Of a stretch of DNA of 64,000 bases, positions 11,279-41,810 are shown one piece after another. The notes under the pieces were generated by a model. It ran no database searches. It was not told the origin of the DNA and saw only the letters and a program-made list of their open reading frames with translations. The number at the start of each line of letters is the position of its first letter. Position 1 is the stretch's first letter. The stretch covers positions 682,001-746,000 of the forward strand of contig NZ_JAUSVL010000001.1 in assembly GCF_030814695.1 (NCBI RefSeq), written 5' to 3'. This DNA comes from Oligosphaera ethanolica. Lineage in GTDB: Bacteria > Verrucomicrobiota > Lentisphaeria > Oligosphaerales > Oligosphaeraceae. The position numbers and the translations under genes are program-made.

Positions 11279-11331
11279 GGTGGCGGTCCTCCTGTCAGTA
11301 TGCGAAAATGGTCAGCGCCGCGCGTGCGGCA

Positions 11332-13192: not shown

Positions 13193-13247
13193 ATCCAGAA
13201 CCACTGTGTCAAGTCTCTCTTTCTATCACAAGATTTCGCACATTACC

Positions 13248-13617: not shown

Positions 13618-13770
13618 CTTTTCTTGCTTGCCATGTCGCACCCCTCCAGGGTGCCATTTTGAGAAGGAACCCCAGGCTGGTATGCCTAACGCTTTCAGCG
13701 TGCTTATTGGTGTCAGCCCCTATGTTTTTGAATGATTTCACACTGGGCCGAAGATGGATAGGGAGGGGGC

Positions 13771-13810
13771 GCGGGGGAGGGGAAGGCGCGAGCGCCTTCC
13801 CCTCCCCCGC
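13771..13810. terminator. 19-bp perfect hairpin after the aldolase gene
   Basis: Bases 13771-13789 are exactly complementary to 13792-13810 with a 2-base loop, all G/C rich. It starts 10 bases past the aldolase stop on the minus strand. There is no T tract on either side, so it may act as an RNA-stabilising 3' end or a Rho-dependent pause rather than a classical terminator. Confidence 0.5.
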
Positions 13811-13819
13811 AAAACCTAC

Positions 13820-26869: not shown

Positions 26870-28417
26870 ATGAAACACAATGCCCATATTCTCAAAAACA
26901 CCCTGACCAACTACCTTCTCGTCGGCCTGCGCATCGTGCAAGGCGTCCTAGTCACCCGCTGGCTGTTCAACTCCCTCGGCAAAGAATACTACGGTTTCTG
27001 GTCACTGATCTGGATGATTCTGGTCTATGCGCTGCTGCTGGACTTCGGCTTCAGCAAGGCCGCCCAGAAATACACCGCCACCGGCCTGTTCAAAAGCAAC
27101 CCCGATACCTACAATCGCTACCTGACGGCGGTCTTCTCACTACTCACGCTGATGGCCACCGCCATCGTCGCCGGCAGCTTCATCGCCAGCCACTTCCTGG
27201 CTGCGCTCACCCGCATCGACTCGCCAGAGCAACTCGCCTACTGCCAGCTCACACTGCGCGTCTTCGGCATCGGCTGTGCACTGGTTTTCCCCACCGGCAT
27301 CTTCCCCGAAATACTCGTCGGCCTGCAAAAAATCTACCTGCGCAACTACGTCCTCATTGGCACGCGCATTGCTGAGACCATCGGCATCGCTGTCATCCTG
27401 GCCATGGGAGGCTCGCTGCTGGGCCTGGCCATCTTCTCCGTAACCCTTAATTTGAGTACCAATCTGGTGATGTACGCGCTCTGCCGGCGGGAAATACCCC
27501 ACCTGCGTCTGCGCTTCCGCTGGGACCCGACAACGCTCAAAGAGCTCGCCAACTTCAGCGGCTTCATCTACCTCATCTCCATCAGCCGCCTCGTTCTCCT
27601 CAAAACCGACCACATCGTCCTCAGCGCCTTCGCCGGCCTCAACGCCGTTGGCGTCTACCAGCTCGGCAGCCGCCTGCCCGAACTCTGCGGCAATCTTGCC
27701 ACTCAGTACCAGGAAAACATCGCGCCAATCAGCGCAGCCCTCCACGCCGACAATCAACAGCAGAGCCTGCGCGACGTTATCTTCTTCGCCATGCGTTTTA
27801 GCAGTTTCATGGCCGTAGGCGGCATCGCCCTGGCCTATATCGTCTGCCAAGACCTTATCGCCCTCCTCTTCAATGTCCACGACGCCGATGTCATCACTGC
27901 TTGCCGCTGGTTGCTCCTCAACGCCACTTTCACCATCGCCGTCCGCAGCGTTTCCGATAAATTTCTCATGATGTCCGGCCGCCACCGCCTCCTGACCGGC
28001 ATCTATTTTTCCGAAGCCGCAGCCAATCTGCTCATCAGCCTGCTGCTGGTCCGCCGCTACGGCGTCACCGGCGTTATCATCGGTACACTTATTCCCAACG
28101 CCATCATCGCCATTCTCGTTCTGGTGCCTTATATTATGACCTTTACACATAGATCGCCCTTGGCTTTTTTGGACAAGGTGTATTTGCGACCAGTGCTGGC
28201 TGCGGCGCTGATGACCCTGGCAGTCATCGGTACTAGGCACGGCTTGGCAGGTACCATGCCACAGCTGCTACAGCTGAGCGTCACCATAGCAGTAGGCGCC
28301 TTGGTTTACTGCGCGGTCTCTTTGGGCATCAATCCCGACGACTGGCAGGCTTTGCATAGGGTTTTTCGTCATAAACTGAAGAAACAGGGGCAATCAGACA
28401 CGACTGCCGGACATTGA
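26870..28417 (+). CDS. Polysaccharide flippase (Wzx/MATE-like, MOP superfamily)
   Basis: A 515-residue integral membrane protein with 12-14 hydrophobic segments throughout. It starts KHNAHILKNTLTNYLLVGLR with the typical VTRWLFNSLGKEYYGFW N-terminal motif of O-antigen and exopolysaccharide exporters. It moves lipid-linked oligosaccharide repeat units across the inner membrane. It lies between the phosphodiesterase and STAS genes, with a GT2 gene further on, all plus strand. The substrate is unknown. Confidence 0.9.
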   Translation: MKHNAHILKNTLTNYLLVGLRIVQGVLVTRWLFNSLGKEYYGFWSLIWMILVYALLLDFGFSKAAQKYTATGLFKSNPDTYNRYLTAVFSLLTLMATAIVAGSFIASHFLAALTRIDSPEQLAYCQLTLRVFGIGCALVFPTGIFPEILVGLQKIYLRNYVLIGTRIAETIGIAVILAMGGSLLGLAIFSVTLNLSTNLVMYALCRREIPHLRLRFRWDPTTLKELANFSGFIYLISISRLVLLKTDHIVLSAFAGLNAVGVYQLGSRLPELCGNLATQYQENIAPISAALHADNQQQSLRDVIFFAMRFSSFMAVGGIALAYIVCQDLIALLFNVHDADVITACRWLLLNATFTIAVRSVSDKFLMMSGRHRLLTGIYFSEAAANLLISLLLVRRYGVTGVIIGTLIPNAIIAILVLVPYIMTFTHRSPLAFLDKVYLRPVLAAALMTLAVIGTRHGLAGTMPQLLQLSVTIAVGALVYCAVSLGINPDDWQALHRVFRHKLKKQGQSDTTAGH

Positions 28418-28463
28418 ACCACCGCCCAGAAACGCGGTCCGCAACAGGGAAGGAACGACGACG

Positions 28464-28802
28464 ATGGAGATTACCCAGAATAACCAGAATGGCGTGCAAG
28501 TCATTGAAGTCAAAGGCCGCCTCACCGCCGACTGCGCGGAAACCTACAAGCAGACGCTGACGGACGTCGTCGCCCAAAACAATCGCCTGGTCATCGACCT
28601 CGCCCAACTGGAATATATTGACAGTACCGGCCTGGGCGCCATGGTCTATATCCTTCAACAGACGCTCGATAACGGCGGCGAGCTCAAACTAGCGCGCCTA
28701 CAGGGCAAATCACGCATCGTCTTCGATATCACCAAGGCCTACAAAATCTTCGATATTTTCGACACCGTCGAAGAGGCCGCCGCCGCCATCAAGAACAAAT
28801 AA
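28464..28802 (+). CDS. STAS-domain anti-sigma-factor antagonist
   Basis: A 112-residue single-domain protein of the SpoIIAA/RsbV family. VKGRLTADCAETYKQ leads into LVIDLAQLEYIDSTGLGAM (42-60). Ser54 or Thr55 is the expected phosphorylation site for a partner kinase. GGAAGGA lies upstream of the ATG. It should bind an anti-sigma factor in its unphosphorylated form. No kinase or phosphatase is nearby, so its partner must be elsewhere. It sits 46 bases after the flippase and may regulate polysaccharide production. Confidence 0.92.
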   Translation: MEITQNNQNGVQVIEVKGRLTADCAETYKQTLTDVVAQNNRLVIDLAQLEYIDSTGLGAMVYILQQTLDNGGELKLARLQGKSRIVFDITKAYKIFDIFDTVEEAAAAIKNK

Positions 28803-28957
28803 GTACCGGGGCCACCCCTCGACCCGAATGCGCCAAGGGCACCATTCTGCCTGCCCCACTTTCCACCCCGTGGAAAACCACCCCCATTCGCGCCGCGGCC
28901 CCGACAGCATGTCGTCGCCGCGGCGCTGTGGTATTCAGCCACGACAGACACCGCACC

Positions 28958-29803
28958 ATGTCCGCCATATCAATTATCATCCGCGCCCACAATGACGCTG
29001 TCTACCTCCCGCAGGTCTTGGCCGGTCTCCGTCGCCAGACCCGCAGGGACTTCGAGCTCATCGCCTGCGACGACCGCTCCAGCGACTGCTCGGCCGATCT
29101 CCTGCGCAGCTGGCCGGGCGTCGTCGTGCTCCCGCCCGAACAGAACGGCTACGTCCCCGGCAAAGTCCTTAACCGCGCTGTCCGCGCCGCCCACGGCGAT
29201 ATCGTCGTCTTCAACAATGCCGATGCGGTCATCCAGGACGAACGCTGGCTCGAAGAACTTGTCGCCCCCCTGGCCGACGATCACGTCGCGGCGGTCTATG
29301 CCCGACAGTTGCCCCGGCCAGACGCCTGGCCGATGGTCCAACGCGATCACGAACAAGCCTTTGGCGACAACCCGCAAGGACCCGGCTGGCGCCATTTCTT
29401 TTCGCTGGCCAGCTCCGCCGTCCGCCGCGATCTGCTGCTGGCAACGCCGTTCAGCGAATCCCTGCAGTACTCCGAAGACGTCGACTGGACCTGGCGCATG
29501 CGCAAACAAGGCTGGCTCATCCGCTACGCCCCCAGCGCCCGCGTCGAACACTCACACAACTACCCGCCAGCGGCACTACGCAAACGCTTCTACAACGAGG
29601 GTCTCGCTGACGCCGCCATCTTCGGCGACAAGCCGCAGCCCCTCCGCGCCTGCCTGCAGGCCGCCACTGACAGCGCCCGCGACCTCAAATACTGCGTCGC
29701 CAACCACCTCTGGACCGGCCTCCTCATGGCCGCACCCTACCGCTGGCGACAAAAACTCGCCCACGACCGCGGCCTCAGAGACTACCGCCCAAAACAGCAG
29801 TAG
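28958..29803 (+). CDS. Family 2 glycosyltransferase
   Basis: 281 residues from the ATG of SAISIIIRAHNDAVYLPQ; a GTG ten codons upstream is the alternative. It has a GT-A fold: the nucleotide-binding DDRSSDCSADLL, the metal-site-like VFNNADAVI in place of strict DxD, and a late SEDVDWTWRMRKQGW (the ED catalytic-base region). It transfers a sugar from a nucleotide donor to a surface polysaccharide or lipid-linked acceptor. It closes the plus-strand surface-glycan run and is convergent with murF. Confidence 0.9.
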   Translation: MSAISIIIRAHNDAVYLPQVLAGLRRQTRRDFELIACDDRSSDCSADLLRSWPGVVVLPPEQNGYVPGKVLNRAVRAAHGDIVVFNNADAVIQDERWLEELVAPLADDHVAAVYARQLPRPDAWPMVQRDHEQAFGDNPQGPGWRHFFSLASSAVRRDLLLATPFSESLQYSEDVDWTWRMRKQGWLIRYAPSARVEHSHNYPPAALRKRFYNEGLADAAIFGDKPQPLRACLQAATDSARDLKYCVANHLWTGLLMAAPYRWRQKLAHDRGLRDYRPKQQ

Positions 29804-29867
29804 CCCAGAAGTCAGGCGAAATATCACCGCCTTGCCCCAAACCTGACAACACTTCGCCCACCGGGGT

Positions 29868-31268
29868 TCACTCGCCGTCGGGGAGGAATTTCTCCAGGTG
29901 TATGCCGTGTGAGGCCTTGAGGAACACCCAGCTGCCTTTGGGGAAGTGGCCGGCGAGGGCCGCCTTGGCCATGGCCGTATCGGGATAATGCTCCAGGCCC
30001 AGCGTGGCGGCGGCGGCGGCCATGTGCGGTCCGACGGTGATCACACGGGCGTCAGGCATCTTCTCGCGCACCCAGCGGAGCAGATCGCGATGCGCGGCTT
30101 CGCAATGGTCGCCCAATTCCAGCATGTCGCCAAGGAGGAGAATGCGCGTGGTCACCTGCCGGCTGATTTCGGCGAACCAAGTGATGCTGGCGCGCATGCT
30201 GTCCGGCCCGGCGTTATAGGCGTCATTGACCCAGTGAATGCCCTGGCGCTCGCATTCGGCCATGCGGTTGTCCGGCAGTACACACTGCTGTAGGCCGCGG
30301 GCGACTTCCGCCAGGCTCAGGCCGTAAATCATACCGACGGCGGCCGCGCCGGCGGCGTTGCGGGCCTGGTGCTCGCCGCCGATTTGCCAGGTCAATTCGA
30401 CGCGTTCGCCGTTGTCTCGTCGCGTCAGCGCCAGCCCGTAACCGCCCTTGCGCTGGCCGAGATACTCGCAGCGCATATCGGCTTCAGCTGCGGCACCGAA
30501 GGTAATGATGCGGCGTGGCGCGGCATGCGCGCGCAGGATGTCGATGCCCTCGGCTTCCACGGGAATGATCGCCACGCCGTCCAGCGCGCTCATGGCCAGC
30601 AAATCGCCTTTTTCCTCGGCGACGCCACGCAGGTCCCGGAAGAATTCCAGGTGTGCAGCGCCGATGCTGCAGATCAGTCCGTGCTGGGGCATGGCCATCT
30701 TGGCCAACGTGACAATCTCGCCCGGGTGGTTGCTGCCCATCTCGATGACTGCGGCGGCCGTTTCACGGGTGATCCGCAGCAGATTGCGCGGCACCCCGAA
30801 GTGATTGTTGGTGTTGGCGATGGTCTTGAGAACCCGCCCCGGCCAGCGCTGCGCCAACACCGCCGCGCAAAGCTCTTTCGTGCTGGTCTTGCCGCAGCTG
30901 CCCGTAATACCCAACACTGGCAACGCAGAAAATTTCAGGCGATGCGCGCGCGCCAGGGCCTGGAAGGCCGCCAGGCCGTCTGCAACCCGCAGACAGCCGC
31001 AGCCGGCGGCCTCTGCGGCCGACCGCTCTTCGGCCGTCAGATCACGCTGCACACACAGCGCGGCCGCGCCGGCCTGCACGGCTGGCAAGATATAGCGATG
31101 GCCGTCGGTTAATTCGCCAGCTATCGCCACAAATAACGCGCCGGGACGCAACTCGCGGCTGTTGTCCTGGACGGCATTCACGCCCGTCCGCAACGACGAC
31201 GGCGGCAAGAGCCACGTGCCCTCGGTGATCCTGGCAAGATCCTGCCACGAAAAAAATAAATCGCTCAT
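29868..31268 (-). CDS. murF: UDP-N-acetylmuramoyl-tripeptide:D-Ala-D-Ala ligase
   Basis: A 466-residue Mur ligase. It has an N-terminal UDP-binding domain with the FFSWQDLARITEG start. The ATP loop is GITGSCGKTSTK (120-131). IANTNNHFGVPRNLL and VIEMGSNHPGEI follow; the latter two are MurF signatures. The C-terminal domain carries DAYNAGPDSMRASI. It adds D-Ala-D-Ala to UDP-MurNAc-tripeptide in the cytoplasm. No other cell-wall gene adjoins it. A decayed copy of its first ~22 codons is found at 36488-36538 and 38164-38180, on the far side of the retroelement. Confidence 0.96.
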   Translation of the reverse strand: MSDLFFSWQDLARITEGTWLLPPSSLRTGVNAVQDNSRELRPGALFVAIAGELTDGHRYILPAVQAGAAALCVQRDLTAEERSAAEAAGCGCLRVADGLAAFQALARAHRLKFSALPVLGITGSCGKTSTKELCAAVLAQRWPGRVLKTIANTNNHFGVPRNLLRITRETAAAVIEMGSNHPGEIVTLAKMAMPQHGLICSIGAAHLEFFRDLRGVAEEKGDLLAMSALDGVAIIPVEAEGIDILRAHAAPRRIITFGAAAEADMRCEYLGQRKGGYGLALTRRDNGERVELTWQIGGEHQARNAAGAAAVGMIYGLSLAEVARGLQQCVLPDNRMAECERQGIHWVNDAYNAGPDSMRASITWFAEISRQVTTRILLLGDMLELGDHCEAAHRDLLRWVREKMPDARVITVGPHMAAAAATLGLEHYPDTAMAKAALAGHFPKGSWVFLKASHGIHLEKFLPDGE

Positions 31269-31713
31269 TGACTAATCTCCACTGGCGATGTGAAAACAAC
31301 CCGTGCCGCCGAGCTTGAGACGGCCTGTGCCTCTGCGGCGGCGAAAAAACGCATATTGCCTCAAGAATACTCCCGGCTTGGCGGCGGACAAAAACCATAA
31401 AGACTCAAGAATACTCCCGGTGCGGACACTTTGCAACGCTATACACCGGCAATTCCCGCTGGGACGGCGGCGCTCCCAGGACTATTGCCGCCGGGACGGC
31501 GGCGCGCCCAGGATGATTGCCGCCAATACTGGCGCGACGCATTGGACACCCAAGCTTCTCCCCCCCCAAATAATAATCTGCGTCAATCTGCGGCATTTGC
31601 GGATAGAAAGCACCCCGGCCGCGACACACGCGCTGCGACTGGACGATAGACCATGCCGCTTGCCGAATAGCCGTAAGCGGTCAGCCATTGATAACGGATG
31701 CTAGGCATGCCGC
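31209..31713 (+). repeat. DGR-flanking direct repeat, left copy (includes murF start)
   Basis: About 505 bp. It covers the first codons of intact murF, its upstream sequence, a GCCGCCGGGACGGCGGCG block and a block from CACCCCGGCCGCGACACACG to GGCATGCC. Matching blocks occur in the same order at 36488-36538 and 38164-38626. The middle parts (about 31396-31420 and 31510-31607) have diverged. No gene is supported between murF and the DGR template. Confidence 0.8.
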
Positions 31714-31735
31714 CGACGTCAACCCCAGGTATGCA

Positions 31736-31917
31736 AGTGAGTTCCATTGCCCCTTTTGGCCCCAGTCAGCTTCGCCGACTGGGGCCAAAGGGGCCGAGGA
31801 ACACGAACATAGTCGCCGTTGCACCCAGGGCGGCGCACGCTTTCAGCGTGCCTGCCCTGGACTGGTATGTTTCGCGCTTTCAGCGCTTCTGCCGCTTCGC
31901 GGCGACTGAAATGTTGA
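31736..31917 (-). repeat. Dispersed palindrome-mosaic element, copy 5 (inverted)
   Basis: The same element as at 13443 but on the opposite strand, beginning TGAGTTCCATTGCC and ending CGCGGCGACTGAAATG. It lies between the left flanking repeat and the DGR template. Confidence 0.85.
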
Positions 31918-32137
31918 CCAGTGGCAAGGCATGACATCAAAGAGCGTTTGCCCTGCAAAGTGTATACGTAATTTGTGAACGGCACCTTACCTATTTCCGC
32001 GAGAGAAAAGTTGTCCGGCCACGTTGATCCCGCAATACGGGACTACTTGCCGCCGGACAGCGGTTGGATTTCGTCTCCATAGTGATGGAGCACGGGCTGA
32101 GCGGATGGGACGGTTCATGTCCTTGCCGTGAATCGTG

Positions 32138-32272
32138 CTCACGAGGCGGAAGCCCAGATTGTTGTTCCGGTTCGACGGCCAGTTCCTGTTGCGGTTCGCC
32201 GAACGGCAGTTGTTCGCGTTGTTGTTCCAGCTGCCGCCCCGGTTGACGCGATTGGACCCGCCGGCAGCGCCT
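32138..32272 (-). repeat. DGR template repeat (TR)
   Basis: A 135-bp segment that aligns without gaps to 33978-34112, at an offset of 1840. Read on the minus strand it is rich in AAC and AAT codons (it would encode RGGSWNNNANNCRSANRNRN), the hallmark of a DGR template. It lies 45 bases downstream of the reverse transcriptase stop on the same strand. Of its 32 minus-strand adenines, 19 differ in the variable repeat, and none of its 103 other bases differ. An open frame of about 105 codons crosses it (31987-32304); I regard that as template RNA, not a gene. Confidence 0.97.
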
Positions 32273-32317
32273 CGACTCCGCCAGCCCAAAATGAAAATTG
32301 TCAATTAATGCCTTCGT

Positions 32318-33304
32318 CTATCTGCCGATGCCTGGGCGCACGCCCAGAAAAACCGCGTCAGCACAAACAGCCCGCACATAATCAACCATTTTTGCCTCGC
32401 TGATCACCCCCTCCGTAAACTGCTGCTCACGGTGCCGCGCCTGACGCTCCATGCGGTGGTATCTGCGCTGTTTAAATCGCAATATGCCGGGAAACACCCG
32501 GAGACCGAGGTATGGAATCCCCTCTGAACACGGTGCAAACAGCCGGGCCTCGGCCTTGATCGACAGCGCCCTCTCTCTTGTAAGCCACTCGGTGAGAGCA
32601 TCGCAATACCCCCAAAGTGCAGCTTTGTTGTCAGCGAACAGCAACATGTCATCCATATAGCGGATAAAACCCGGTACGCCCCTGTCATCCAGGATGAAAT
32701 GATCCGCTCCATCCAGATAGAAGTTGGCAAACCACTGACTGGTCAAGTTGCCGATGGGCAGCCCTTTGCCGGAGTTCTGTCCAGGAAAAGGGTGACAGAC
32801 AATACGGGTGAGCAGGTCGAGCAGCTTTTGTTCTCGGAAGAGCCGGCCGAGCAGGCCCAGAAGAATCCCGTGGTCCACGCTGTCGAAGAAGCGCTTCACG
32901 TCCAGTTTGCAGAAGTATCCGAACCGACGCGCAAACTCGAGCGCCCGCAACACCGCACGATGGGTTCCCTTGCCCTCCCGGCAGGCGAACGAGTCGTAGA
33001 TGAACCGCCGTTCGATCACCGGCCCGATCACGCTGCAGACCGCATGCTGCACCACCCGGTCACGGAACGGCGCGCAGCTGATCCGTCGAGGCTTGGGGTC
33101 CATGACACGGAACTGGTCGTAGCCAGAGGGCTCATAGCCGCCGCTACGCAGATCGTATTCGAGGGCAGACAACTCGCTGCCCGCATTCGCCACGAAACGC
33201 GTCACCCCCGGACGGTCCATCTTGCCGCGAGCGGCACGATCCATGGCTGACAGGAGGTTCTCCCGCGCGCAAACCTGATCGAAAAGACCGCCGACCGATT
33301 TCAT
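32318..33304 (-). CDS. DGR reverse transcriptase
   Basis: A 328-residue group of retroelement RTs specific to diversity-generating retroelements. Motif A is KLDVKRFFDSVDH (133-145, Asp135). The DGR-type motif GLPIGNLTSQWFANFYLD (181-198) replaces the usual QGxxxSP. The catalytic YMDD is at 216-219, and a thumb region follows. All catalytic aspartates are present, so it should be active. It copies the template RNA while misincorporating at adenines, giving cDNA that replaces the variable repeat. Its ATG overlaps the HRDC gene stop (ATGA), implying coupled expression. The template repeat follows its stop. Confidence 0.97.
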   Translation of the reverse strand: MKSVGGLFDQVCARENLLSAMDRAARGKMDRPGVTRFVANAGSELSALEYDLRSGGYEPSGYDQFRVMDPKPRRISCAPFRDRVVQHAVCSVIGPVIERRFIYDSFACREGKGTHRAVLRALEFARRFGYFCKLDVKRFFDSVDHGILLGLLGRLFREQKLLDLLTRIVCHPFPGQNSGKGLPIGNLTSQWFANFYLDGADHFILDDRGVPGFIRYMDDMLLFADNKAALWGYCDALTEWLTRERALSIKAEARLFAPCSEGIPYLGLRVFPGILRFKQRRYHRMERQARHREQQFTEGVISEAKMVDYVRAVCADAVFLGVRPGIGR

Positions 33305-33807
33305 CGCCCTTCGTCTCCTTCTTCAGGTGTTTTCCCAGCCGCCGCAGACGGTTCCGGCTGCAGATCGTCGGGGATCAACTTGAGGATATCCTGACCATAC
33401 TTTTGACAGGTCCCCTCGCCAATCCCCTCAATCTCTTTAAGCGCGGCCAAGCTATGCGGCAGGCGGCGGCAGATTTCTGCTATCTGCACATTGCGCATGA
33501 TCACGTAGCTGGGAACGCCATCCTGCTTTGCGCGTTCATTCCGCCATTGCCGCAGGTCCCGGTAGAGCTTCTGAAGGTGTTCCGACAGGGCCGTGCCGGG
33601 ATCGTTCTCCGGCCGGAACTTCGTCTCCGGCTTCGTATTGTCGCCGTTCAGGAGTAAAACCAGGGCCAAATGCGGCACATTCCCATGCATGAAAAAGTGG
33701 TCGCGCACCTCAAGCACGTCGCACCCCGAGACAACCTTGGCAAGATCATCCTCGGGAAATCCCTGCAAGCCTTCGCTATAACGGAGGGTGATGACACGTG
33801 TTTTCAC
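33301..33807 (-). CDS. DGR accessory protein with HRDC domain
   Basis: A 168-residue protein. The N-terminal region (1-55: TRVITLRYSEGLQGFPEDD, then DVLEVRDHFFMHGNVPHLAL) is a small conserved domain seen in DGR-linked accessory proteins. Residues 78-147 form an HRDC domain: LQKLYRDLRQWRNERAKQDG, PSYVIMRNVQIAEICRRLP, ALKEIEGIGEGTCQKYG. HRDC domains bind nucleic acid. Here it probably stands in for Avd, the usual DGR accessory protein, which is absent. It shares an ATGA overlap with the RT gene. Its exact biochemical role is not established. Confidence 0.92.
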   Translation of the reverse strand: MKTRVITLRYSEGLQGFPEDDLAKVVSGCDVLEVRDHFFMHGNVPHLALVLLLNGDNTKPETKFRPENDPGTALSEHLQKLYRDLRQWRNERAKQDGVPSYVIMRNVQIAEICRRLPHSLAALKEIEGIGEGTCQKYGQDILKLIPDDLQPEPSAAAGKTPEEGDEGR

Positions 33808-33849
33808 GGCCTATGTCTCCTGAAACAGAAATCCGAAAAATTGAATCGA

Positions 33850-33891
33850 CCAGGGGCTGCGCCCCTGGACCCCAACGCCGCTTGCAGCGGC
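33850..33891. other. GC-rich hairpins between the DGR target and its accessory gene
   Basis: CCAGGGGC-TGC-GCCCCTGG (33850-33868) is an 8-bp perfect hairpin, and GCCGC-TTGCA-GCGGC (33877-33891) follows. They lie about 75-115 bases beyond the target stop. In well-studied DGRs a hairpin or cruciform downstream of the variable repeat helps homing, but it is usually much closer. These could instead be a terminator or RNA-processing site. Confidence 0.5.
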
Positions 33892-33964
33892 TTGCCGCTG
33901 CGGCTGCGCCGCCCCTGCCGGGACGCGGCAAGACCGCGCAACACGGCGAAAAGGACGGCAAGGA

Positions 33965-33990
33965 CTACTGAACCGCCCTCACGAGGCGGA
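33965..33990 (-). promoter_or_regulatory. Probable initiation-of-mutagenic-homing (IMH) region
   Basis: On the minus strand VR ends CTTCCGCCTCGTGAG, then GGCGGTTCAGTAG. TR has the same first part, then CACGATTCACGGC. The partial likeness past the junction, with differences that are not adenine-linked, resembles the IMH (VR) versus IMH* (TR) pair known from other DGRs. It overlaps the target stop codon. Confidence 0.6.
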
Positions 33991-36286
33991 AGCCCAGAAT
34001 GATGCCCCGGCGCGACGGCCAGTCCCTGTTGCGGTCCGCCGAACGGCAGTCGTACGCGTAGCGGCCCCAGCCGCCGCCCCGGGCGACGCGATCGGACCCG
34101 CCGGCAGCGCCTGGGGGATCGGTCTGAGCCGCACTCCCCAGTTCGCTCTGATACCAGTCCAGGCACCATTCCCATACGTTACCGTGCATGTCATAAAGCC
34201 CCCACTGATTCGGCAAATAGCTGCCGACTTTGGCAGAGCCAACGGATGTGTCACCATCAGATGAATAACCTGATCCGCCATTGTACCAGTATCGCCCGAC
34301 CTCGGCTACATTCGGGCATTCATATTCATCGGTCAAATTCTTCCCCGAATTCAAGGCGGTCGTGGTCCCTGCCCGGCAGGCATACTCCCATTGTGCTTCC
34401 GTCGGCAGGTCGAAGTCCAGGCCGGTTTTGGTCCGCAGCCGCCCCAGGAAGGAGCCGGCATCAACAGCATTGTTGCCCGGCCAGCCTGCTCCGGCGCTAC
34501 TTCCACGAATGTCGTCGTAACTGATCTGTTCCACTGGGCGGGCATCGCGATAGGATGCGTTGGAAAACCAACTTGGCCAGTTGCCCATCACCCGCTCCCA
34601 TTGCTTCTGGGTCACTTCAAAGACACCCACATAGAAGTCCTTGGTCAGGGTCACCGGATGCTGGGTCTCGTCAGGATCTCGCCCCAGTTCATTTGCTGGC
34701 GACCCCATGGTGAAAGTACCAGCAGGAATTTTTCGTAGCACCAGCTTCGTGGTCTTGTATTCGTCAGTCCAGCCGCCGGCCGGGGCGGTCGTGCGAGTGC
34801 TAACCGGGTAGCTCGCGGCGTCAGGCCCTGCTGACAAGTCAATAACGAGATAGGTATCCTCAGGCGGCGCAACATATCCACCTGGCCAATATAGCCAATA
34901 ACCGTTCCCGGCAAGCAGATTTTCCGTCGGATAAAAGCGCTGCCCATTCCACCCCCAGGCGACGGCACCGGCGCTCCACAGGCTGCGGTCGCACAGCGGG
35001 CCCACAAAATTCCAGCCCAATTTCAGGCTCGCCTCGAAATCAAAGCTTTCAAGGGCAGTACCAAAAAGTGTGACTTCATCCGCTGCCTGACAATAGATCC
35101 AATATGCCTGGGTTGCAGCCAGGTTGCCGCTGAGAGCATAGGCCTTGCTGCTTGCATCCAGCGTCATCGCCCCTTTATTCAGCAGCAGAGACTGGGAATC
35201 CTGGTCAAGATTTAGACTGGCGCTGATCAGGTTCCAGCCGGCAGTGAGTTTACAGGAGTAGTAATACGCGGTAGGCAAGCCTGCGTAGTGAGTACCCCAG
35301 CCGGCAGTCCCGAAAACATGGTAGGCCGTGCCGGGGACGCCCAAAAAATGGTTATCGCCCTCAGTAAGCGGCGGAACACCGGCAAAATAGACTGCCAGGA
35401 GACTCGAACACCCATCGAAAGCCCAGCCGCCGATACTGGTCACGCTGGCGGGAATGATCACCTTGGCGAGCTGTGCGCAATAGGAAAACGCCCCTTCACC
35501 AATGCTGGTGACGCTGTCGGGTATCAACACGCTTGCAAGCAGTCCACACTCATCAAAGGCCCAAGCGCTGATGCTGACAACGCCATCGGGAATCTGATAG
35601 GCGCCGGATTTTGCGGCGGGATACAACAATAAAATCGTCATGTTTTTGTCGAACAGAACGCCATCTACGCTGCTGTAGGCGGGATTGGCCTGGGACACGA
35701 CAAATTCAACCAGCCTCAGGCAGAGATCAAACGGGTATTCACCCATGGTGACAACCCCGGCGCCTATACTCACCTTGCTCAGATTGTCGCATTCGGCAAA
35801 GGCCCAATCCCCGATACTGATAACGCTGTCGGGTATGGCCACGCCGGTGATAGAGGCTAAATAAGCGAATGCCTCCTCGCCAATGCCGGTCACCGGCACG
35901 CCGTCAATCGTGTTGGGTATGACGATGTCGCCGCCGGCGCCAGTATATTGAGTTATGGTGACTTCGTTATTGCTGATGGTATACTCGTAATCGTCGTCAC
36001 TTCTGACGGCACTGCGCAGGATGCTATTGCCGTCTTGTTGCGGAGCTGTGCGACGAGAGGCGAGTCCTAGTGCCATGTCAACGCTGGATGCAAAGTCCAC
36101 GGCGTTACTCGTGCCGGCAGGCAACATCCGTGATGGCTCTGCAGACACAGACAGCATGAAGAAAAGCAAAAAAGTCAATGAACAGACTCTGGCCACTCTA
36201 CAGATTGATTTGCGTGCTGGTCGCAACGCCTTTGCGTTCATGTCACGCATCGCCACTGAATGTCTGAGTTGTCTGAAGAATTCCAT
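33965..36286 (-). CDS. DGR target protein: secreted, BspA-like repeats plus FGE/C-type-lectin-fold variable domain
   Basis: A 773-residue protein. AGGAGGCGAAGG precedes the chosen ATG; the frame stays open 25 codons further. A signal peptide ends near residue 49 (SLTFLLFFMLSVSA). Residues about 100-345 are BspA/TpLRR-like repeats (IPDSVTSIGEGAFSYCAQL type). About 355-480 hold two Trp/Gly-rich modules (AGWNLISASLNL; LGWNFVGPL; GNGYWLYW). From about 510 a formylglycine-generating-enzyme-like domain follows (IPAGTFTMGSP, LPTEAQWEYACRAG, YDMHGNVWEW). Its last part (726-770) is the variable repeat. Only one of the two catalytic FGE cysteines seems present (YAYDC), so it is probably a ligand-binding, not enzymatic, domain. 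It likely acts at the cell surface. Confidence 0.95.
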   Translation of the reverse strand: MEFFRQLRHSVAMRDMNAKALRPARKSICRVARVCSLTFLLFFMLSVSAEPSRMLPAGTSNAVDFASSVDMALGLASRRTAPQQDGNSILRSAVRSDDDYEYTISNNEVTITQYTGAGGDIVIPNTIDGVPVTGIGEEAFAYLASITGVAIPDSVISIGDWAFAECDNLSKVSIGAGVVTMGEYPFDLCLRLVEFVVSQANPAYSSVDGVLFDKNMTILLLYPAAKSGAYQIPDGVVSISAWAFDECGLLASVLIPDSVTSIGEGAFSYCAQLAKVIIPASVTSIGGWAFDGCSSLLAVYFAGVPPLTEGDNHFLGVPGTAYHVFGTAGWGTHYAGLPTAYYYSCKLTAGWNLISASLNLDQDSQSLLLNKGAMTLDASSKAYALSGNLAATQAYWIYCQAADEVTLFGTALESFDFEASLKLGWNFVGPLCDRSLWSAGAVAWGWNGQRFYPTENLLAGNGYWLYWPGGYVAPPEDTYLVIDLSAGPDAASYPVSTRTTAPAGGWTDEYKTTKLVLRKIPAGTFTMGSPANELGRDPDETQHPVTLTKDFYVGVFEVTQKQWERVMGNWPSWFSNASYRDARPVEQISYDDIRGSSAGAGWPGNNAVDAGSFLGRLRTKTGLDFDLPTEAQWEYACRAGTTTALNSGKNLTDEYECPNVAEVGRYWYNGGSGYSSDGDTSVGSAKVGSYLPNQWGLYDMHGNVWEWCLDWYQSELGSAAQTDPPGAAGGSDRVARGGGWGRYAYDCRSADRNRDWPSRRGIILGFRLVRAVQ
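33978..34112 (-). other. DGR variable repeat (VR)
   Basis: The 135-bp 3' end of the target gene, aligned gap-free with the template repeat. The 19 differences all sit at template adenines (minus strand). They alter mainly Asn codons: N to A, G, R, Y, D or I, plus one S to G. Unchanged parts keep the fold: GFRL near the end, CRS, RNR and WPS. Similarity breaks abruptly at 33977, where TR and VR differ at a non-adenine base. This is the expected junction with the initiation-of-homing sequence at the 3' side of the coding strand. Confidence 0.97.
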
Positions 36287-36487
36287 CCTTCGCCTCCTGA
36301 TTTTGCTCTTTCCACGGTTTGCTTTCAACACCTCTCCCGGTTGCGGTGTGAGTTCTGTCAAAAATCATACTATTGTTTCATCGCAACTTACTATTTTTGA
36401 GTAACCTACGCTTAGTTATCACCATCCTGCAATTTACTGAAAAACCTCTTTGCACATTTGGTTTGACAACGGTCATGTGGACGGCAA

Positions 36488-36538
36488 CAGCCACGCGCCC
36501 TCGGTGATCCTGGCCAAGTCCTGCCACGAAAAAAATAA
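36488..36538 (+). pseudogene. murF 5' fragment, part 1 of the right flanking repeat
   Basis: On the minus strand this encodes LFFSWQDLARITEG, then AWLLP, corresponding to murF residues 4-22. A stop follows where similarity ends. It is the first part of the right direct repeat of the DGR and is separated from the rest by the ISL3 element. It is a remnant without a promoter or downstream gene. Confidence 0.8.
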
Positions 36539-38163
36539 GGCTCTTCAGGAAACTTAGTGGGTAGATTTTTCGACGTTTTGTGCTCAGAACCAAGACAACG
36601 CCTTGTCACATGGGGGGAAAAAAGCCAGCTAATCGTACGCATAAAATAGTGTAACTTGTTGATATTCAACGATCAATTAATGTTCAAATTATGATGCCCG
36701 CCCAGCTTTCCATGTCAATTTGTATGGAAGGCAGTCGGAGCAATCTTCCGCTTCGGTGTTTCTTGTTATTGCAAGAATGCCTTCACTTTTGTTGCACCCG
36801 ATCATTTTTGTGTTTCATTACCTCATGGCCACGCAATGCCCAGTCAATCACCTGACCTCGTCATTCACATTGAGCCATGGGAGTCCGCCATGAACTTGGA
36901 GTCGTTTTATCAACGCGTGATTAATCCGCCATCGCCCTGGACTGTCTCCAAGGTCGAAATTTCCGACGACAGTACCCGTGTTGACGTCTGGCTGATCCAT
37001 CAGGAGCATTATCGCTTTTCGTGTCATGCCTGTCACACCCCATCACCTACTTACGACCATGCTCCGGAAAGAACCTGGCAACATCTGGACACCTGCGAGT
37101 GCAAGACCTACCTTCATGCCCGTATTCCCCGAGTTCAATGCCCCAAGCATGGGATCGTCAACAGCGACTTTCCTCTGGCTGATTCACAGATCTCAATTAC
37201 ATACAAGATGGAAAGCAAGTGCATCAAGACCATCCAGGCCTCCAATTTGACCGATGCGTCCGAACTAACGAGGGTGTCTTGGGACATGTTGGAAAGTATC
37301 CGCGATCGGGCCGTCAAGCGAGGGCTTGAGCGACGTGGCGATACGACGCCGGTCATCATGGGACTTGACGAGAAGCAGGTGTTTTCCAGACATCGCTATT
37401 TCACCATTATCACTGACATTGGCAATGGGAGCGTGTTTGACGTGGTGGACAAGCGGCGCATTGATGACATCAGCCCCTGGTTTGAAAAACGCAAGGAAAG
37501 TTTGAAAAACGTCCAGATCGCGGCCATGGACATGAGTGCGGGGTATGAGCGTATTGCGTCAAACTTCATGCCCAATGCCGAACTGTGTTTTGATCATTTC
37601 CATGTGATGCAGGTCGTCCAAAAGGCAGTGGACAGCACACGAAAGCAAGAACAGGCCACGATGAGCGATGAGGACAAGAAAAGCATGTTCGGAGCGCGCC
37701 ATGATTTTCTGTATGGCAGGGAGAATCTTCCTGACAAAAACAAGGCCAGGTTCGAAAAAGTTAGACAGATTGCCAAGAAAACGGCGCGGGCATGGGCAAT
37801 CAAGGAAAACCTTCGCGACATGTGGACAACTTGCCCCGACAAAGAAGAGACGCCGAAGTATTTCAAACACTGGTACTGGTGGGCGACGCATTCACAAATT
37901 CCGGACATGGCAAAAGCCGCCCATACGCTGAAAAACCACTTCTATGGCATAGTGGCTGCAATCGAACATGGGGTCAGCAATGCCCTGACCGAGGGGCTGA
38001 ACAGCAAAATTGAGGCTGTCAAGAGAAGTGCATGTGGTTTCAAAAACAAAGAATCTTTACGCAATGCAATTCTGTTTCATTGCGGGAAACTTAACCTGCT
38101 GCCAGAGGCCGCCAACTAGCACTTGCACTCAAATTTGCAACCCACGGAATTGCCTGAAGCACC
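36539..38163 (+). mobile_element. ISL3-family insertion sequence
   Basis: 1625 bp. The left end begins GGCTCTTCAGGAAACTTAG. The right end, reverse-complemented, begins GGTGCTTCAGGCAATTCCG. These are imperfect terminal inverted repeats of the ISL3 type. It is flanked by 8-bp direct copies of AAAAATAA (36531-36538 and 38164-38171), the target-site length usual for ISL3. Removing the element and one copy restores the murF 5' fragment. It contains one intact transposase gene. The intervals 36539-36835 and 38120-38163 hold no other gene. Confidence 0.93.
36836..38119 (+). CDS. ISL3-family transposase
   Basis: 427 residues, or 409 if the ATG at 36890 (NLESFYQRVINPPSPW) is used. An N-terminal zinc-finger-like region (CHACHTPS and a later CPKHG) is followed by the DDE transposase domain. 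The motifs are IMGLDEKQVF (first Asp), AAMDMSAGYE and FDHFHVMQ (second region), and NALTEGLNSKIEAVKR (catalytic Glu). All three acidic positions appear intact and the frame is uninterrupted, so the element may still be mobile. It catalyses cut-and-paste movement using the terminal inverted repeats. Confidence 0.95.
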   Translation: MPSQSPDLVIHIEPWESAMNLESFYQRVINPPSPWTVSKVEISDDSTRVDVWLIHQEHYRFSCHACHTPSPTYDHAPERTWQHLDTCECKTYLHARIPRVQCPKHGIVNSDFPLADSQISITYKMESKCIKTIQASNLTDASELTRVSWDMLESIRDRAVKRGLERRGDTTPVIMGLDEKQVFSRHRYFTIITDIGNGSVFDVVDKRRIDDISPWFEKRKESLKNVQIAAMDMSAGYERIASNFMPNAELCFDHFHVMQVVQKAVDSTRKQEQATMSDEDKKSMFGARHDFLYGRENLPDKNKARFEKVRQIAKKTARAWAIKENLRDMWTTCPDKEETPKYFKHWYWWATHSQIPDMAKAAHTLKNHFYGIVAAIEHGVSNALTEGLNSKIEAVKRSACGFKNKESLRNAILFHCGKLNLLPEAAN

Positions 38164-38626
38164 AAAAATAAATCGCTCATTGCATCAATCTCCACTGGCG
38201 ACGCGAAAACAACCCGTGCCGCTGGACATGAGACTGCTCGAGCCTCTTGGGCGGCGGGAAAACGCATATTGCCTCAAGAATACTCCCAGCACGGGTACTT
38301 TGCAACGCCATACACCGGCAAATGCCGCCGGGACGGCGGCGCTCCCAGGACTATTGCCGCCGGGACGGCGGCGACACGGGCGCGCTACGATCGACGTGGA
38401 TGACGAAGACGGTTTTATGAGCCGTCTCGCCGGCGCGGGCTGAAAGCCCGCACCACGGCCGCGATACAAGTGCGCGAGGGAGACGCTGAAAACACGCGTG
38501 CGAGGGGACGCGAGCTGACCTCATGCACCCCGGCCGCGACACACGCGCCGCGACTGGACGATAAACCATGCCGCTTGCCGAAAAGCCGTAATCGGTTAGT
38601 GATTGATAACTGATGCACGGCATGCC
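38164..38626 (+). repeat. DGR-flanking direct repeat, right copy, part 2
   Basis: Continues the right repeat after the insertion sequence: the murF start codon region (minus-strand ATGAGCGATTTATTTTT), then AATCTCCACTGGCGA, ACGCATATTGCCTCAAGAAT, the GGACGGCGGCG block and the CACCCCGGCCGCGACACACG block. About 130 bp in the middle (38375-38520) has no match in the left copy. Confidence 0.8.
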
Positions 38627-38665
38627 TCTCGCTGGCGCGTGGGACGCGGCGTGCTAGCCAATGTG

Positions 38666-38922
38666 GCGCCCTCCGGGCGCAATTCCAAGTTGTTGTCACA
38701 CCCCTGGTTGCGGCGCCCTCCGGGCGCCTCGCCAGGGGTTATGCATGGTACGGCCCTCCGGGCCGAACTTGGCCGATCTGACGACTTGCTTTGTCCGATT
38801 CGGGTCGAAAACCTCCATCATTTAATATCCATGTTTTTGCGCCGTAGGCGCTTAGCCATGCTTAACCCCAGGCTTTAGCCTGGGGACGCAGCCTGCCAAC
38901 AGACAGTGCCTCGTAGAGGCAC
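38666..38922. repeat. Cluster of TCC- and GTA-triloop hairpins
   Basis: GCGCCC-TCC-GGGCGC (38666-38680) comes first. A nested CCCCTGG...CCAGGGG stem (from 38701) follows, enclosing GGCGCCC-TCC-GGGCGCC. Next is CGGCCC-TCC-GGGCCG near 38751. Then GCGCC-GTA-GGCGC (38839-38851), CCCCAGGC-TTTA-GCCTGGGG (38866-38885) and GTGCCTC-GTA-GAGGCAC (38906-38922). Loops stay constant while stems change in pairs. No gene lies between 38627 and 39079. Confidence 0.8.
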
Positions 38923-39079
38923 CACAGTTTTGGTTATCAATCACTGACCGATTACCAAAAGCCTGTCAATGGGCAACCAGCCCAAGTGCTATTTTTATGT
39001 CATGAACTACAGTAAGCGCCTTGCGACTCCGTAGCCGCTGAAACAGCGTTTTGACTACAGTTTCACATGTGGGATAGGT

Positions 39080-41797
39080 ATGAAAATTGAGTTGGTGCTC
39101 AGCCCCGGCGGCCGCCTGCGTCTGGAAACGACCGTGGAGCCCGAATTCGATTGTTGGGATGCGCCTGATGCCATCGTTCAGAAACTGACAGACGGCTTTG
39201 CACGTGGCAATGCCGATGGCCTGCTGGCTTTGGTCAATGAGGACATCTCCGCCAGCGCCCCCCTCGCCTGCAGATATTTCCGCCAGTTTACGCGCGAAAT
39301 CATCACCGCGCTATGCCGCGTGCAGTGCGGCAACGCCAGCGAGCTTCCCCGGGCCCTGGCTGAGCTCAGCCCAGAACAGTCAGCCCTTGACGCCGAGATT
39401 ATGGCTGCACCGCCCATGCGCGGTGCAGAATACATCAACGCCGACTGGCTGCAGTCCCTCCATGGCGAGCTCATCACCTGGGTAACGGACCAGTACAAAC
39501 CCCGCTTCGGGCCCTTTGCCGAATGGGTCAGAAAACTGAATCCGGCGTGGAAGAGCGTCGGCAAAGTCAGTTTTCACCTAGCCGAAAACAAGCAGGACAC
39601 GAGCGGCGCGTATCCCTTTGCCTTTTTGGCGACATTCATCCATCGGCTCTCCGAAAATGACGTCCCCCGACACCTCCCCCTCGGCACCGCCATCAAGACC
39701 TACGTCAATGATCGCAACGCCCTGCTGGCCCTGCTCAAACCCGTCCAGGACGCTGCGGCACGTAGCAAGCTAATCGCCGGCCTGTTGGAAAAGCGCGAGA
39801 TATTCCGCCCCCAGGCGTGGACGGCCCGTCAGGCCTTCGATTTTCTCAGCGACCTGCCCGCCATCGAGGAATCCGGCGTCATCGTCCGCATCCCGAACAT
39901 CTGGAAAAACAACGCCCCGCCAAAGGTCAAAGTGTCCGTCGCCGTGGACCTGCGCAAGAACCAGCAACTCGGCGTCAATGCCCTCCTGGACTTTTCCGTC
40001 CAAGCGGTTCTTGACGGTCAAGAGCTGTCACGGGAAGAGTTGGCCGCCTTGCTGAATTCGAACGACGGCCTAGTCCGTATCAAAGGCAATTGGGTCGCAG
40101 CCGATTCTGACAAAATCCGCGAGCTTTTGCAACAGTGGGACCAAGCTGCCCGCAGCAACCAACAGGGCATGAGTTTTATTGACGGCCTGCGCCTTCTGGC
40201 CGGCGCTCAGTTGCCCGGCTCGCCCAACAGGCCAGCCGACGAAGCCAACGTCTGCGAAGTCCACGCCACCGGGCAGCTCCAGCAGCTCCTGGCCGAACTG
40301 GCCAGCCCCTCAGCAATCCCCTTGCCGCCCATGCCGGCGCCTCTGCAAAGCAGGTTGCGACCCTATCAGCTGGACGGCGTCCGCTGGCTCTGGCGCATGT
40401 CCGAACTGGGTCTGGGCTGTTGTTTGGCTGACGACATGGGGCTGGGCAAGACTCTGCAAGTCCTCTGCCTCCTCACCTTGCTGCAAGCGCGGGGCGACAC
40501 CCGGCAAAGCCCGGCCTTGCTGGTCGTACCCGCGTCGCTGCTGCAAAATTGGTGCAAGGAATCCGCGCAATTCACTCCCCATTTGCGCTTTGGCATTCTC
40601 CATCCCATGGCGATGAGCGACGACGACACCCGGGCCTGCAACGACAACGCCGCCCAGTACGTGCAGCGCTTCGACGCCGTGCTCACTACCTACGGCATGC
40701 TCTCACGCATCAACACGTTGCAGACAATCACCTGGGCCGCCGTCATCGCCGACGAAGCCCAGGCCATCAAAAACCCCGCCTCCAAGCAAAGCAAAGCCGT
40801 CCGCGGCCTGCAGAGTCCGCGCCGCCTGGCCCTGACCGGCACGCCCGTCGAAAACCGCCTCTCGGACTTGTGGAGCATCTTCGACTTCATCAGCCCGGGC
40901 CTGCTCGGCAGCCCGAGCTCCTTCAAGACCTTTGTCAAAAATCTCAATGACGCCGGCGGCAACGCCAACTTCGGGCCTCTGCGCCGACTCACCCGGCCCT
41001 ACATTTTGCGGCGATTGAAGACCGACAAGCGCATCATTGCCGACCTCCCCGACAAAACGGAAATGAAAGTCTTCTGCCAGCTGACCAAGCCCCAAGCCGT
41101 CTTCTACCAACAGGCCGTCACCGCCATGACCAGGGAACTTCAGGAAAGCGACGGCATCCAGCGCCGCGGGCTGATTTTCAAATATCTGATGATCTTCAAG
41201 CAAATTTGCAACCACCCCAGCCAATTCACGGGTGATGGCGACTACGACGCGGCTTCCGGCGGCAAATTCCTCCGGCTGGCGGAAATTGCGGAGGAAATTC
41301 GCTCGCGGCAGGAAAAGGTGCTGGTCTTCACCCAGTTTGCGGAGATGACCGAGCCCCTGCACGAACACTTGACGCGATGTTTTGGCCGCAGCGGCTTGAT
41401 CCTGCACGGCGGCACGGCCATCAAACAGCGCCAAGTGCTGGTTGAGGATTTTCAGCGGGACGCCGGCCCGCCCTTTTTCGTGCTATCAGTGAAGGCCGCC
41501 GGCACGGGCCTGAATCTCACCGCCGCCAACCACGTGGTCCATTTCGACCGCTGGTGGAATCCCGCCGTGGAAAACCAGGCCACCGACCGTGCCTACCGCA
41601 TCGGTCAGCACCGCAATGTCCTGGCCCACAAATTCATCTGCAAAGGCACCGTGGAAGAAAAGATTGACGCGCTCATCGATGAAAAGAAAGACCTCGCCGA
41701 TTCGCTGCTCAGCCAGGGCGCCGAAAAATTGCTCACAGATATGAACAATGACGAGTTGCTCAAGTTTGTCGAACTCGACCTGAAGTCAATGATGTAA
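39080..41797 (+). CDS. SNF2-family DNA-dependent ATPase/helicase
   Basis: A 905-residue Swi2/Snf2 protein. The N-terminal ~420 residues are a bacterial SNF2-associated region. The helicase core starts at LRPYQLDGVRWLWRM. Walker A is DDMGLGKTLQVL (about 451-462), motif II is IADEAQAIKN (DEAQ, about 556) and motif III is LALTGTPVENRLSDLW. The C-terminal half carries KVLVFTQFAEM and VHFDRWWNPAVENQATDRAYRIGQ. All motifs are intact. It translocates on double-stranded DNA to remodel protein-DNA complexes. It lies 13 bases before the SWIM-domain gene, a frequent bacterial pairing. Confidence 0.95.
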   Translation: MKIELVLSPGGRLRLETTVEPEFDCWDAPDAIVQKLTDGFARGNADGLLALVNEDISASAPLACRYFRQFTREIITALCRVQCGNASELPRALAELSPEQSALDAEIMAAPPMRGAEYINADWLQSLHGELITWVTDQYKPRFGPFAEWVRKLNPAWKSVGKVSFHLAENKQDTSGAYPFAFLATFIHRLSENDVPRHLPLGTAIKTYVNDRNALLALLKPVQDAAARSKLIAGLLEKREIFRPQAWTARQAFDFLSDLPAIEESGVIVRIPNIWKNNAPPKVKVSVAVDLRKNQQLGVNALLDFSVQAVLDGQELSREELAALLNSNDGLVRIKGNWVAADSDKIRELLQQWDQAARSNQQGMSFIDGLRLLAGAQLPGSPNRPADEANVCEVHATGQLQQLLAELASPSAIPLPPMPAPLQSRLRPYQLDGVRWLWRMSELGLGCCLADDMGLGKTLQVLCLLTLLQARGDTRQSPALLVVPASLLQNWCKESAQFTPHLRFGILHPMAMSDDDTRACNDNAAQYVQRFDAVLTTYGMLSRINTLQTITWAAVIADEAQAIKNPASKQSKAVRGLQSPRRLALTGTPVENRLSDLWSIFDFISPGLLGSPSSFKTFVKNLNDAGGNANFGPLRRLTRPYILRRLKTDKRIIADLPDKTEMKVFCQLTKPQAVFYQQAVTAMTRELQESDGIQRRGLIFKYLMIFKQICNHPSQFTGDGDYDAASGGKFLRLAEIAEEIRSRQEKVLVFTQFAEMTEPLHEHLTRCFGRSGLILHGGTAIKQRQVLVEDFQRDAGPPFFVLSVKAAGTGLNLTAANHVVHFDRWWNPAVENQATDRAYRIGQHRNVLAHKFICKGTVEEKIDALIDEKKDLADSLLSQGAEKLLTDMNNDELLKFVELDLKSMM

Positions 41798-41810
41798 GGA
41801 ACACCAGCAC

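Follow-up and report, generated by a model that had tools for sequence, protein, structure and literature searches.

A diversity-generating retroelement of Oligosphaera ethanolica with an HRDC accessory protein and a covarying RNA element 3′ of its template repeat

The 64 000-nucleotide stretch of the Oligosphaera ethanolica genome analysed here (contig NZ_JAUSVL010000001.1, positions 682 001 to 746 000 of the forward strand; referred to as the window, whose own numbering is used below) contains what we regard with near certainty as a diversity-generating retroelement (DGR). Read 5′ to 3′ on the minus strand, the cassette consists of a target gene, a gene for an HRDC-domain accessory protein, a reverse transcriptase (RT) gene, a template repeat (TR) and a folded RNA element. 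The TR differs from the variable repeat (VR) in the target gene at adenines only, the RT lies within the DGR branch of a phylogenetic tree, no Avd gene is present in the cassette, and the RNA element shows covariation. A first-pass annotation of the sequence had described a complete and intact-looking DGR. Its completeness is borne out by the adenine-only repeat pair, the RT, the accessory gene and a target from the formylglycine-generating enzyme (FGE) family that ends in the VR, and its intact look by the open reading frames of all three genes.

The repeat pair and the reverse transcriptase

The TR (32272–32138, minus strand) is located downstream of the RT gene, a position on which the first-pass annotation had not commented. 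The VR (34112–33978, minus strand) ends 13 bases short of the end of the target gene. Program alignment joined the two without gaps over 135 bp, exactly as in the first-pass annotation, and reproduced its mismatch counts. All 19 mismatches fall on TR adenines, so that 19 of the 32 adenines and none of the 103 other bases are changed (12 A>G, 4 A>T and 3 A>C; hypergeometric probability of the adenine-only pattern 5.3e-15). The count of 0/103 is valid within the 135 bp only, as TR and VR part right after, at non-adenine bases. The adenines are unevenly distributed over the reading frame: 17 occupy the first, 14 the second and one the third codon position. There are 14 AAY codons, in which no single change of an adenine at the first two positions gives a stop codon. 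The 3′ ends of VR and TR share 21 identical bases (33978–33998 and 32138–32158, minus strand), followed by divergence. By its sequence, this stretch resembles an initiation of mutagenic homing (IMH) site and may have that role. An automatic scan of positions 28001–42000 for adenine-only repeats recovered this pair and no other.

The RT (328 aa; 32318–33304, minus strand; PF00078) carries the motifs GLPIGNLTSQ at residue 181 and YMDD at residue 216, on which its assignment as a DGR enzyme had originally been based. Its best PDB match by sequence, ahead of group II RTs, is 8ub7_A, entitled ‘Reverse transcriptase’ (E = 1.6e-44), which we take to be the BPP-1 enzyme. Nine RVT_1 matches were found in the genome. 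The other eight score far higher with RVT_1 and fall into two sets of almost identical copies; the cassette RT is distinct from them. In a tree of 101 rows (eight short rows omitted; midpoint root, short search, some long branches), the DGR branch comprises 88 rows with an SH-like approximate likelihood ratio test (SH-aLRT) value of 100 and includes the cassette RT, in agreement with this assignment. The 13 other RVT_1 rows lie outside this branch, among them the three of the genome's eight other RTs that were included in the tree; these rows and the eight genomic copies are group II-like by assumption. Within the DGR branch, the enzyme belongs to a set of 19 rows (SH-aLRT 100) nested in a set of 36 rows characterized by HRDC (SH-aLRT 93).

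An adenine-only pair was found by scanning in 57 of 75 loci. Judged by position only, the TR follows the RT gene in 11 of the 13 HRDC-bearing rows with a placed TR/VR pair, the window included, and precedes it in 37 of the 39 other placed DGR rows (BPP-1 by its annotation), on the opposite strand in four of them (L032, L033, L034, L036). Several database proteins (P0061, P0068, P0075 and others) are RTs of 390–443 aa annotated with RVT_1 plus FGE-sulfatase domains; these are probably RT frames which continue in frame into the TR. A mobile origin of the cassette was considered and rejected: there was no close relative of the RT among phages (best 39.6% identity among the best 40 of 147 records) or in IMG/VR (up to 36% among the best 80 matches), and the best plasmid match reached 47%.

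An HRDC accessory gene and no Avd gene

The accessory gene already noted on the same strand (33301–33807, minus) encodes a protein of 168 aa with an HRDC domain (PF00570, E = 5.9e-20), and its stop codon overlaps the start of the RT gene by 4 bases. An AlphaFold2 model built from 44 sequences (pLDDT 87.4, pTM 0.53) predicts an N-terminal beta-alpha-beta-beta part (residues 2–53) followed by the HRDC domain; the best Foldseek matches of the model are RecQ HRDC domains (E = 3.8e-4). An accessory gene, either avd or HRDC, is a common DGR trait (PMC3240598, PMC10053308), present here in the form of HRDC. No Avd gene, as found beside the RT in BPP-1-type DGRs, was detected between 29001 and 38000. 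The sole bAvd-like gene of the genome was rejected, as it scored below the cut-off and represents a 23S rRNA-IVP protein.

Accessory genes were sought in DNA loci only; tree rows scored ‘-’ include proteins without locus (P entries) and cut contigs, which are not assessable. All seven assessable rows of the 19-row set have HRDC (a fragment in L015) and none has Avd, while six loci of the larger HRDC set carry both. A fair reading of these two observations is that Avd was lost from an ancestor with two accessories. HRDC without Avd occurs in 17 of the 32 tree rows having a detected accessory.

The target gene

The target gene (33965–36286, minus strand) encodes 773 aa from the ATG at 36286, the position initially given as its end; the frame is open up to a TTG at 36361, and AGGAGG precedes the ATG. 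The protein consists of a leader-like hydrophobic N-terminus (recognized by eye), BspA-type LRR_5 repeats (approximately 35378–36001, minus strand; PF13306 and alignments to solved LRR proteins), a GWN-rich linker (by eye) and a C-terminal FGE-sulfatase domain of the C-type lectin fold family (33977–34729, minus strand; PF03781, E = 3.8e-42). Its sequence matches include BspA-type LRR structures, formylglycine-generating enzymes and the variable protein of Treponema denticola (2y3c, E = 3e-20). Placement of the VR at the 3′ end of a C-type-lectin-fold gene, which the first-pass annotation had indicated by a target ending in the VR, is thus supported by the FGE domain and by homology to TvpA and FGE. 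An AlphaFold2 model of the C-terminal region was discarded as too poor (pLDDT 42.6). The target is likely, as predicted from these domains, to be a surface protein whose tip the cassette would rewrite.

A covarying RNA element 3′ of the template repeat

Comparison with a relative (WAS_Bin_30, G018) revealed that conservation does not stop at the TR. Whereas the RT and TR are identical at 573/672 and 128/135 positions, the successive 50-base blocks after the TR show 50/50, 46/50 and 36/45 identities (5 unaligned in the last) before similarity drops. The 150 nt after the TR have a predicted folding energy of −52.4 kcal/mol (z = −2.43; 2 of 200 shuffles equally good). The element itself extends over about 105 nt (32009–32113, minus strand), starts 24 nt 3′ of the TR and forms a hairpin and a long branched stem. 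Both hairpins covary strongly, and two unpaired stretches are conserved: a GUCCCAUCCG-like run before the first hairpin and GUA inside the second.

In a search of 45 sources, a covariance model (R1) seeded with only the two sequences of O. ethanolica and G018 gave 11 matches at E ≤ 1: the two seeds, L016 (5.8e-7), L015 (1.2e-6), L018 (2.3e-4), L017 (0.0091), L026 (0.14), L256 (0.53) and three off-place matches. The matches in L016, L015, L018 and L017 all lie 21–26 nt 3′ of their own TR. A second model (R2) was built from seven sequences (the seeds, L016, L015, L018, L017 and L026) and run on 65 sources. It matched the window and 12 loci at E ≤ 0.0025 (13 matches). Six of the loci (L091, L094, L024, L022, L256 and L095) had not been used for model building, and in each of them the match is located 3′ of an AAC-rich TR. 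In all 12 loci, an AAC-rich, FGE-tail-coding TR lies just upstream of the RNA match on the same strand. In L016, where the TR is upstream of the RT gene, the RNA element stays with the TR. Weaker matches occurred in L097 (0.088) and L025 (0.93). There were none in 61 viral loci, and in another 87 sources, among which were the 19 remaining viral loci and 40 stretches with paralogs, only L014, which is the same contig as L110, and L297 were matched. With filters off, five weak matches appeared in five more loci (best E = 0.059), four of them, by their coordinates, 3′ of the RT gene on the RT strand. These searches covered all loci of the collection except L001–L013, L099–L108, L136–L147, L150–L174, L257–L283 and L324–L352.

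In the alignment of the 13 sequences, 91.9% of cells are paired compared with 34–46% in slid controls, and 24 of 26 base pairs changed on both sides; the covariation score is 0.745 compared with 0.09–0.16 in slid controls, a value reached in none of 500 shuffles. For the first seven sequences, the corresponding values are 94.0% paired and 20 of 26 pairs changed on both sides. Rfam 15 gave no match at E ≤ 1 in 31900–32320. No description of such an RNA was found in the literature searched, which was largely without subscription papers, so that its absence from print is unproven.

Unlinked FGE paralogs carry a codon fingerprint

Besides target and TR, the genome contains 14 FGE matches. Since most of the unlinked paralogs show A-enriched mismatches as well, A-enrichment was dropped as proof of a VR, and third-base and synonymous-codon tests with shuffles and controls were used instead. 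Eight unlinked domains of this genome, taken from the stretches retrieved and tested as a set, align to the 268-residue FGE query starting by residue 180 and reaching residue 255 or beyond; 70 domains pass the same filter when other family genomes are included. At the 14 columns which are AAY codons in the TR, fourfold codons of the eight domains end in C or T with a frequency of 0.90 (n = 41), compared with 0.52 at variable flank columns (p = 4e-6). For 38 domains from eight listed family genomes, the values are 0.75 and 0.55 (p = 9e-6); these genomes are all drafts, seven without an RT match and one (G005) with a weak match (8.5e-10), and G012 gave no domain. Seventeen DGR-linked rows used as positive control gave 0.85 and 0.47 (one row, in L022, is the TR translation). 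As negative control, 22 FGE domains from 29 phylum-level loci, which are 27–35% identical and therefore less surely aligned, gave 0.63 and 0.65 (p = 0.7).

Shuffling codons among like residues within a gene confirmed the bias in the genome's own paralogs (0.83 versus 0.57 expected; 0 of 400 shuffles). Moreover, their VR codons for the same residue match those of the TR at 0.71 versus 0.38 expected (z = 9.1), compared with 0.43 versus 0.38 in the flank. The phylum-level controls had neither signal (0.66 versus 0.71 and 0.37 versus 0.42). As judged from these codon patterns, the eight domains as a set are likely retired DGR targets. There is precedent both for degenerate DGR loci (PMC10907252) and for additional, VR-less paralogs in DGR hosts (PMC3521204).

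Ordinary diversifying selection on the lectin loop, acting on inherited C-ending codons, could possibly leave the same trace without past DGR mutagenesis, and several results weigh in its favour. The signal differs by genome: it is absent in G004 (0.68 versus 0.68), slight in G009 (n = 8), reversed in G033 (n = 3) and G034 (n = 5), and without significance in G007, where 48 of 400 shuffles reached the observed value; furthermore, the tested rows have common ancestry. However, the genome's own paralogs are only 38–42% identical to the target and their flank third positions 54–65% diverged, yet C/T endings are far more frequent at the TR-AAY columns than at the variable flank columns; their same-residue VR codons match the TR more often than expected, and neither signal occurs in the phylum-level domains. 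We therefore consider selection the less probable explanation, although a serious one, and prefer past DGR mutagenesis.

Two loci with large repeat genes were seen in the course of this analysis. In L110 (G018), the contig that also carries the DGR of that genome, an open frame of 1396 aa (10560–14567, minus strand) contains four FGE domains in tandem, 65–73% identical to that of the target; a comparable cluster is found at C1:5640463–5645951 of the O. ethanolica genome. At about 4.70–4.73 Mb (G000:C1), there are open frames of more than 9000 aa (9446 and 9641) with LRR_5-like repeats.

Role of the RNA element

We propose that the folded RNA is a handle for recognition of the template RNA, here together with the HRDC protein; this role is likely by analogy with BPP-1, in which the RT–Avd complex is recruited by a folded spacer 3′ of the TR (PMC12875486). 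Several observations detract from it. Three of the 11 R1 matches at E ≤ 1 are off-place (window 63190–63228, the element's own antisense, and L020 10180–10276), and the R2 match in L297 (E = 0.0047) is on the opposite strand inside an FGE gene of a genome without an RT match, probably by chance. The alignments were fitted to the model (A11 to the structure), which inflates the covariation counts somewhat, and the RNA E-values are rough. The TR-brt region of BPP-1 does not match the RNA model. Finally, the element is not peculiar to Avd-free cassettes: Avd is present in three of the 12 element-bearing loci (L022, L256 and L091). Because these carry Avd and L091 lies outside the HRDC set of the RT tree, the distribution of the element is wider than that of Avd-free cassettes.

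Alternatively, the long stem may act as a terminator. The element would then be a mere terminator or mRNA-end structure of the RT–TR transcript and not a recognition handle, and the long GC-rich stem followed by ACTTTTCTC indeed looks terminator-like by eye. Against this speak two covarying hairpins with conserved unpaired stretches (the GUCCCAUCCG-like run and GUA) close to the TR, as well as the element's accompanying the TR instead of the RT gene in L016, and the BPP-1 spacer offers a precedent for recruitment (PMC12875486). We thus judge this explanation improbable and retain the handle as the proposed function.

In the Avd-bearing loci L020, L022, L023, L027, L091 and L024 (L024 by its sister L021), an extra hairpin with an AYGG-like loop separates the end of the TR from the core RNA. 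It was not seen in the Avd-bearing L256, L097 and L028, nor near the window, and the motif also matched in three HRDC-only loci (L015, L030 and L095). It is possibly an Avd docking site; the motif was defined post hoc and serves as a lead only.

Activity of the cassette and search for further variable repeats

The first-pass annotation had proposed a search for further VRs. None was found: the genome-wide TR search, in which 40 of 54 first-look candidates were scored, returned no other adenine-only match. Its five matches are the TR, the VR and three weaker FGE paralogs with non-adenine differences, which were rejected as extra active VRs. The 21-base VR end has exact copies at four genome sites (TR, VR, one paralog and a truncated duplicate of its end), and two near copies have 1 and 3 mismatches. 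An unlinked FGE lipoprotein gene has a truncated duplicate of its 3′ end at a distance of about 20 kb (G000:C1 1744927, L116, and 1724739, L011/L109), and the 21-base VR end is exact in gene and duplicate alike.

Recent activity of the cassette, also suggested in the first-pass annotation, is plausible from its sequence because TR and VR show no non-adenine drift, whereas the closest other TR (G018) differs at 6 of 103 non-adenine sites. One result speaks against it. No hairpin was found before +76 after the VR; those at +76 and +109 have the loops CAAG and GCA and not GRNA. The scan recovered the GAAA-loop hairpin of BPP-1, 4 bp after its VR, as positive control. GC-rich GRNA-loop hairpins lie 4–34 bp after the VR in phage DGRs, and hairpins are predicted for most chromosomal DGRs according to unpublished data cited in the same paper (PMC3240598). 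We did not take this hairpin as a defining DGR trait.

The cassette might thus be complete but silent, having undergone a single homing not long ago on the molecular scale and no longer working. The lack of a hairpin close to the VR fits this explanation, as does evidence that such targets do get stranded. A draft genome of the same genus (G001, 88% complete) encodes a homologous target, 63% identical, which differs from the TR at 21 of 32 adenines and 12 of 103 other sites (flank 87/397). This genome has no RT match, and no HRDC match was found in the 0.5 kb between this target homologue and the end of its contig; that it represents a stranded VR is suggestive only. In the synteny comparison for an empty site, the G002 contig was found to start inside the Mur ligase gene, and G001 yielded no close Mur ligase copy. 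On the other side, three open genes and the complete lack of non-adenine TR/VR differences speak against a silent cassette; the 34 unlinked paralog domains differ at 12–47% of non-adenine sites. We judge silence improbable. A chance or paralogous repeat that merely resembles a TR/VR pair is refuted for practical purposes: the genome does have 14 other FGE matches, several with similar tails, but an adenine-only pattern has a probability of 5e-15, was seen in none of the eight paralog domains compared with the TR, and here stands beside a DGR-type RT and HRDC.

Proposed mechanism and significance

Taken together, we are confident that this is a complete DGR in which the RT and HRDC protein, with no Avd in the cassette, likely copy the TR from an RNA ending in a conserved folded handle. 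Following the BPP-1 paradigm, TR and handle would be transcribed as one RNA, and the handle would be recognized by the RT with HRDC. Misincorporation at adenines during copying would give an adenine-mutated cDNA, whose homing, guided by the 21 bases in which the ends of VR and TR agree, would replace the 3′-terminal part of the predicted surface-lectin gene. Earlier rounds may have written the variable tips of the unlinked FGE paralogs, whose link to the template was lost later. A wider proposal, to which we give even chances, is that the element represents a new RNA family, a portable handle that flags template RNAs for the RT both within the HRDC branch and outside it. On this view, the handle survives Avd loss and, with HRDC, replaces the Avd–spacer system of BPP-1; in addition, targets released time and again would have given rise to a collection of fixed lectin variants across the genome.

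None of the protein components is unusual: HRDC accessories, FGE targets and cassettes with the TR after the RT gene have all been published. Although it merely adds another member to the DGRs, the cassette brings one question within reach of experiment: retrohoming of BPP-1 requires Avd (PMC12875486), yet the 17 accessory-bearing tree rows mentioned above have HRDC without it. Of the new findings, we rate the folded RNA, whose function is conjectural, most highly: it provides a defined 105-nt object for asking what an Avd-free RT recognizes, and the RNA model can serve as a profile to locate TRs in genome sequences. By means of the codon fingerprint, gene families formerly written by a DGR may be recognized even after loss of template and RT.

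Neighbouring features

The genome is a single contig of 5.73 Mb, and the flanks of the cassette look chromosomal, with a Mur ligase gene (29868–31268) on one side and an ISL3-type transposase gene (36836–38119) on the other (Pfam). Between the target and HRDC genes (33840–33910), there are GC-rich perfect hairpins, which may belong to a repeat dispersed over the genome. Acido-Lenti-1 RNA (RF01687) occurs twice in the window, 858 bases apart (18335–18399 and 19193–19257, minus strand), possibly within a tandem duplication.

Comparison with known systems

The TvpA-type DGR of T. denticola shares the HRDC accessory gene overlapping the RT gene, the FGE-family target and the adenine-directed VR (PMC4891356), and solved TvpA (2y3c) aligns to the C-terminus of our target. 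It differs in having the accessory gene between TR and RT, an arrangement called group 1a (PMC4891356), whereas here the TR is downstream of the RT gene and followed by the covarying RNA. In this respect, the cassette corresponds to ‘group 2’ of the DiGReF survey, a known architecture that is mostly cyanobacterial there (PMC3521204): RT (33304–32318) and TR (32272–32138) follow each other on the minus strand. The cassette differs from that group by HRDC without Avd and by the folded RNA 3′ of the TR, which is not mentioned in the consulted parts of the survey (PMC3521204). The Bordetella phage BPP-1 DGR has a homologous RT (34.5% identity), a VR at the 3′ end of its target and a TR RNA with a folded 3′ spacer (PMC12875486), but Avd in place of HRDC, the TR before the RT gene, a GAAA-loop hairpin 4 bp after the VR and a TR-brt region unmatched by our RNA model. 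Degenerate DGR loci of Thiohalocapsa PB-PSB1 are a precedent for targets with missing or broken machinery; these were recognized by component loss (PMC10907252), whereas our paralogs, with no TR or RT seen beside them, were recognized by codon traces. Finally, the DGR of the Prosthecochloris aestuarii plasmid pPAES01 (L256) shares FGE genes, HRDC, an RT which is 47% identical and the RNA element (E = 0.0022), situated there 3′ of an AAC-rich stretch resembling a TR, but carries Avd in addition to HRDC.

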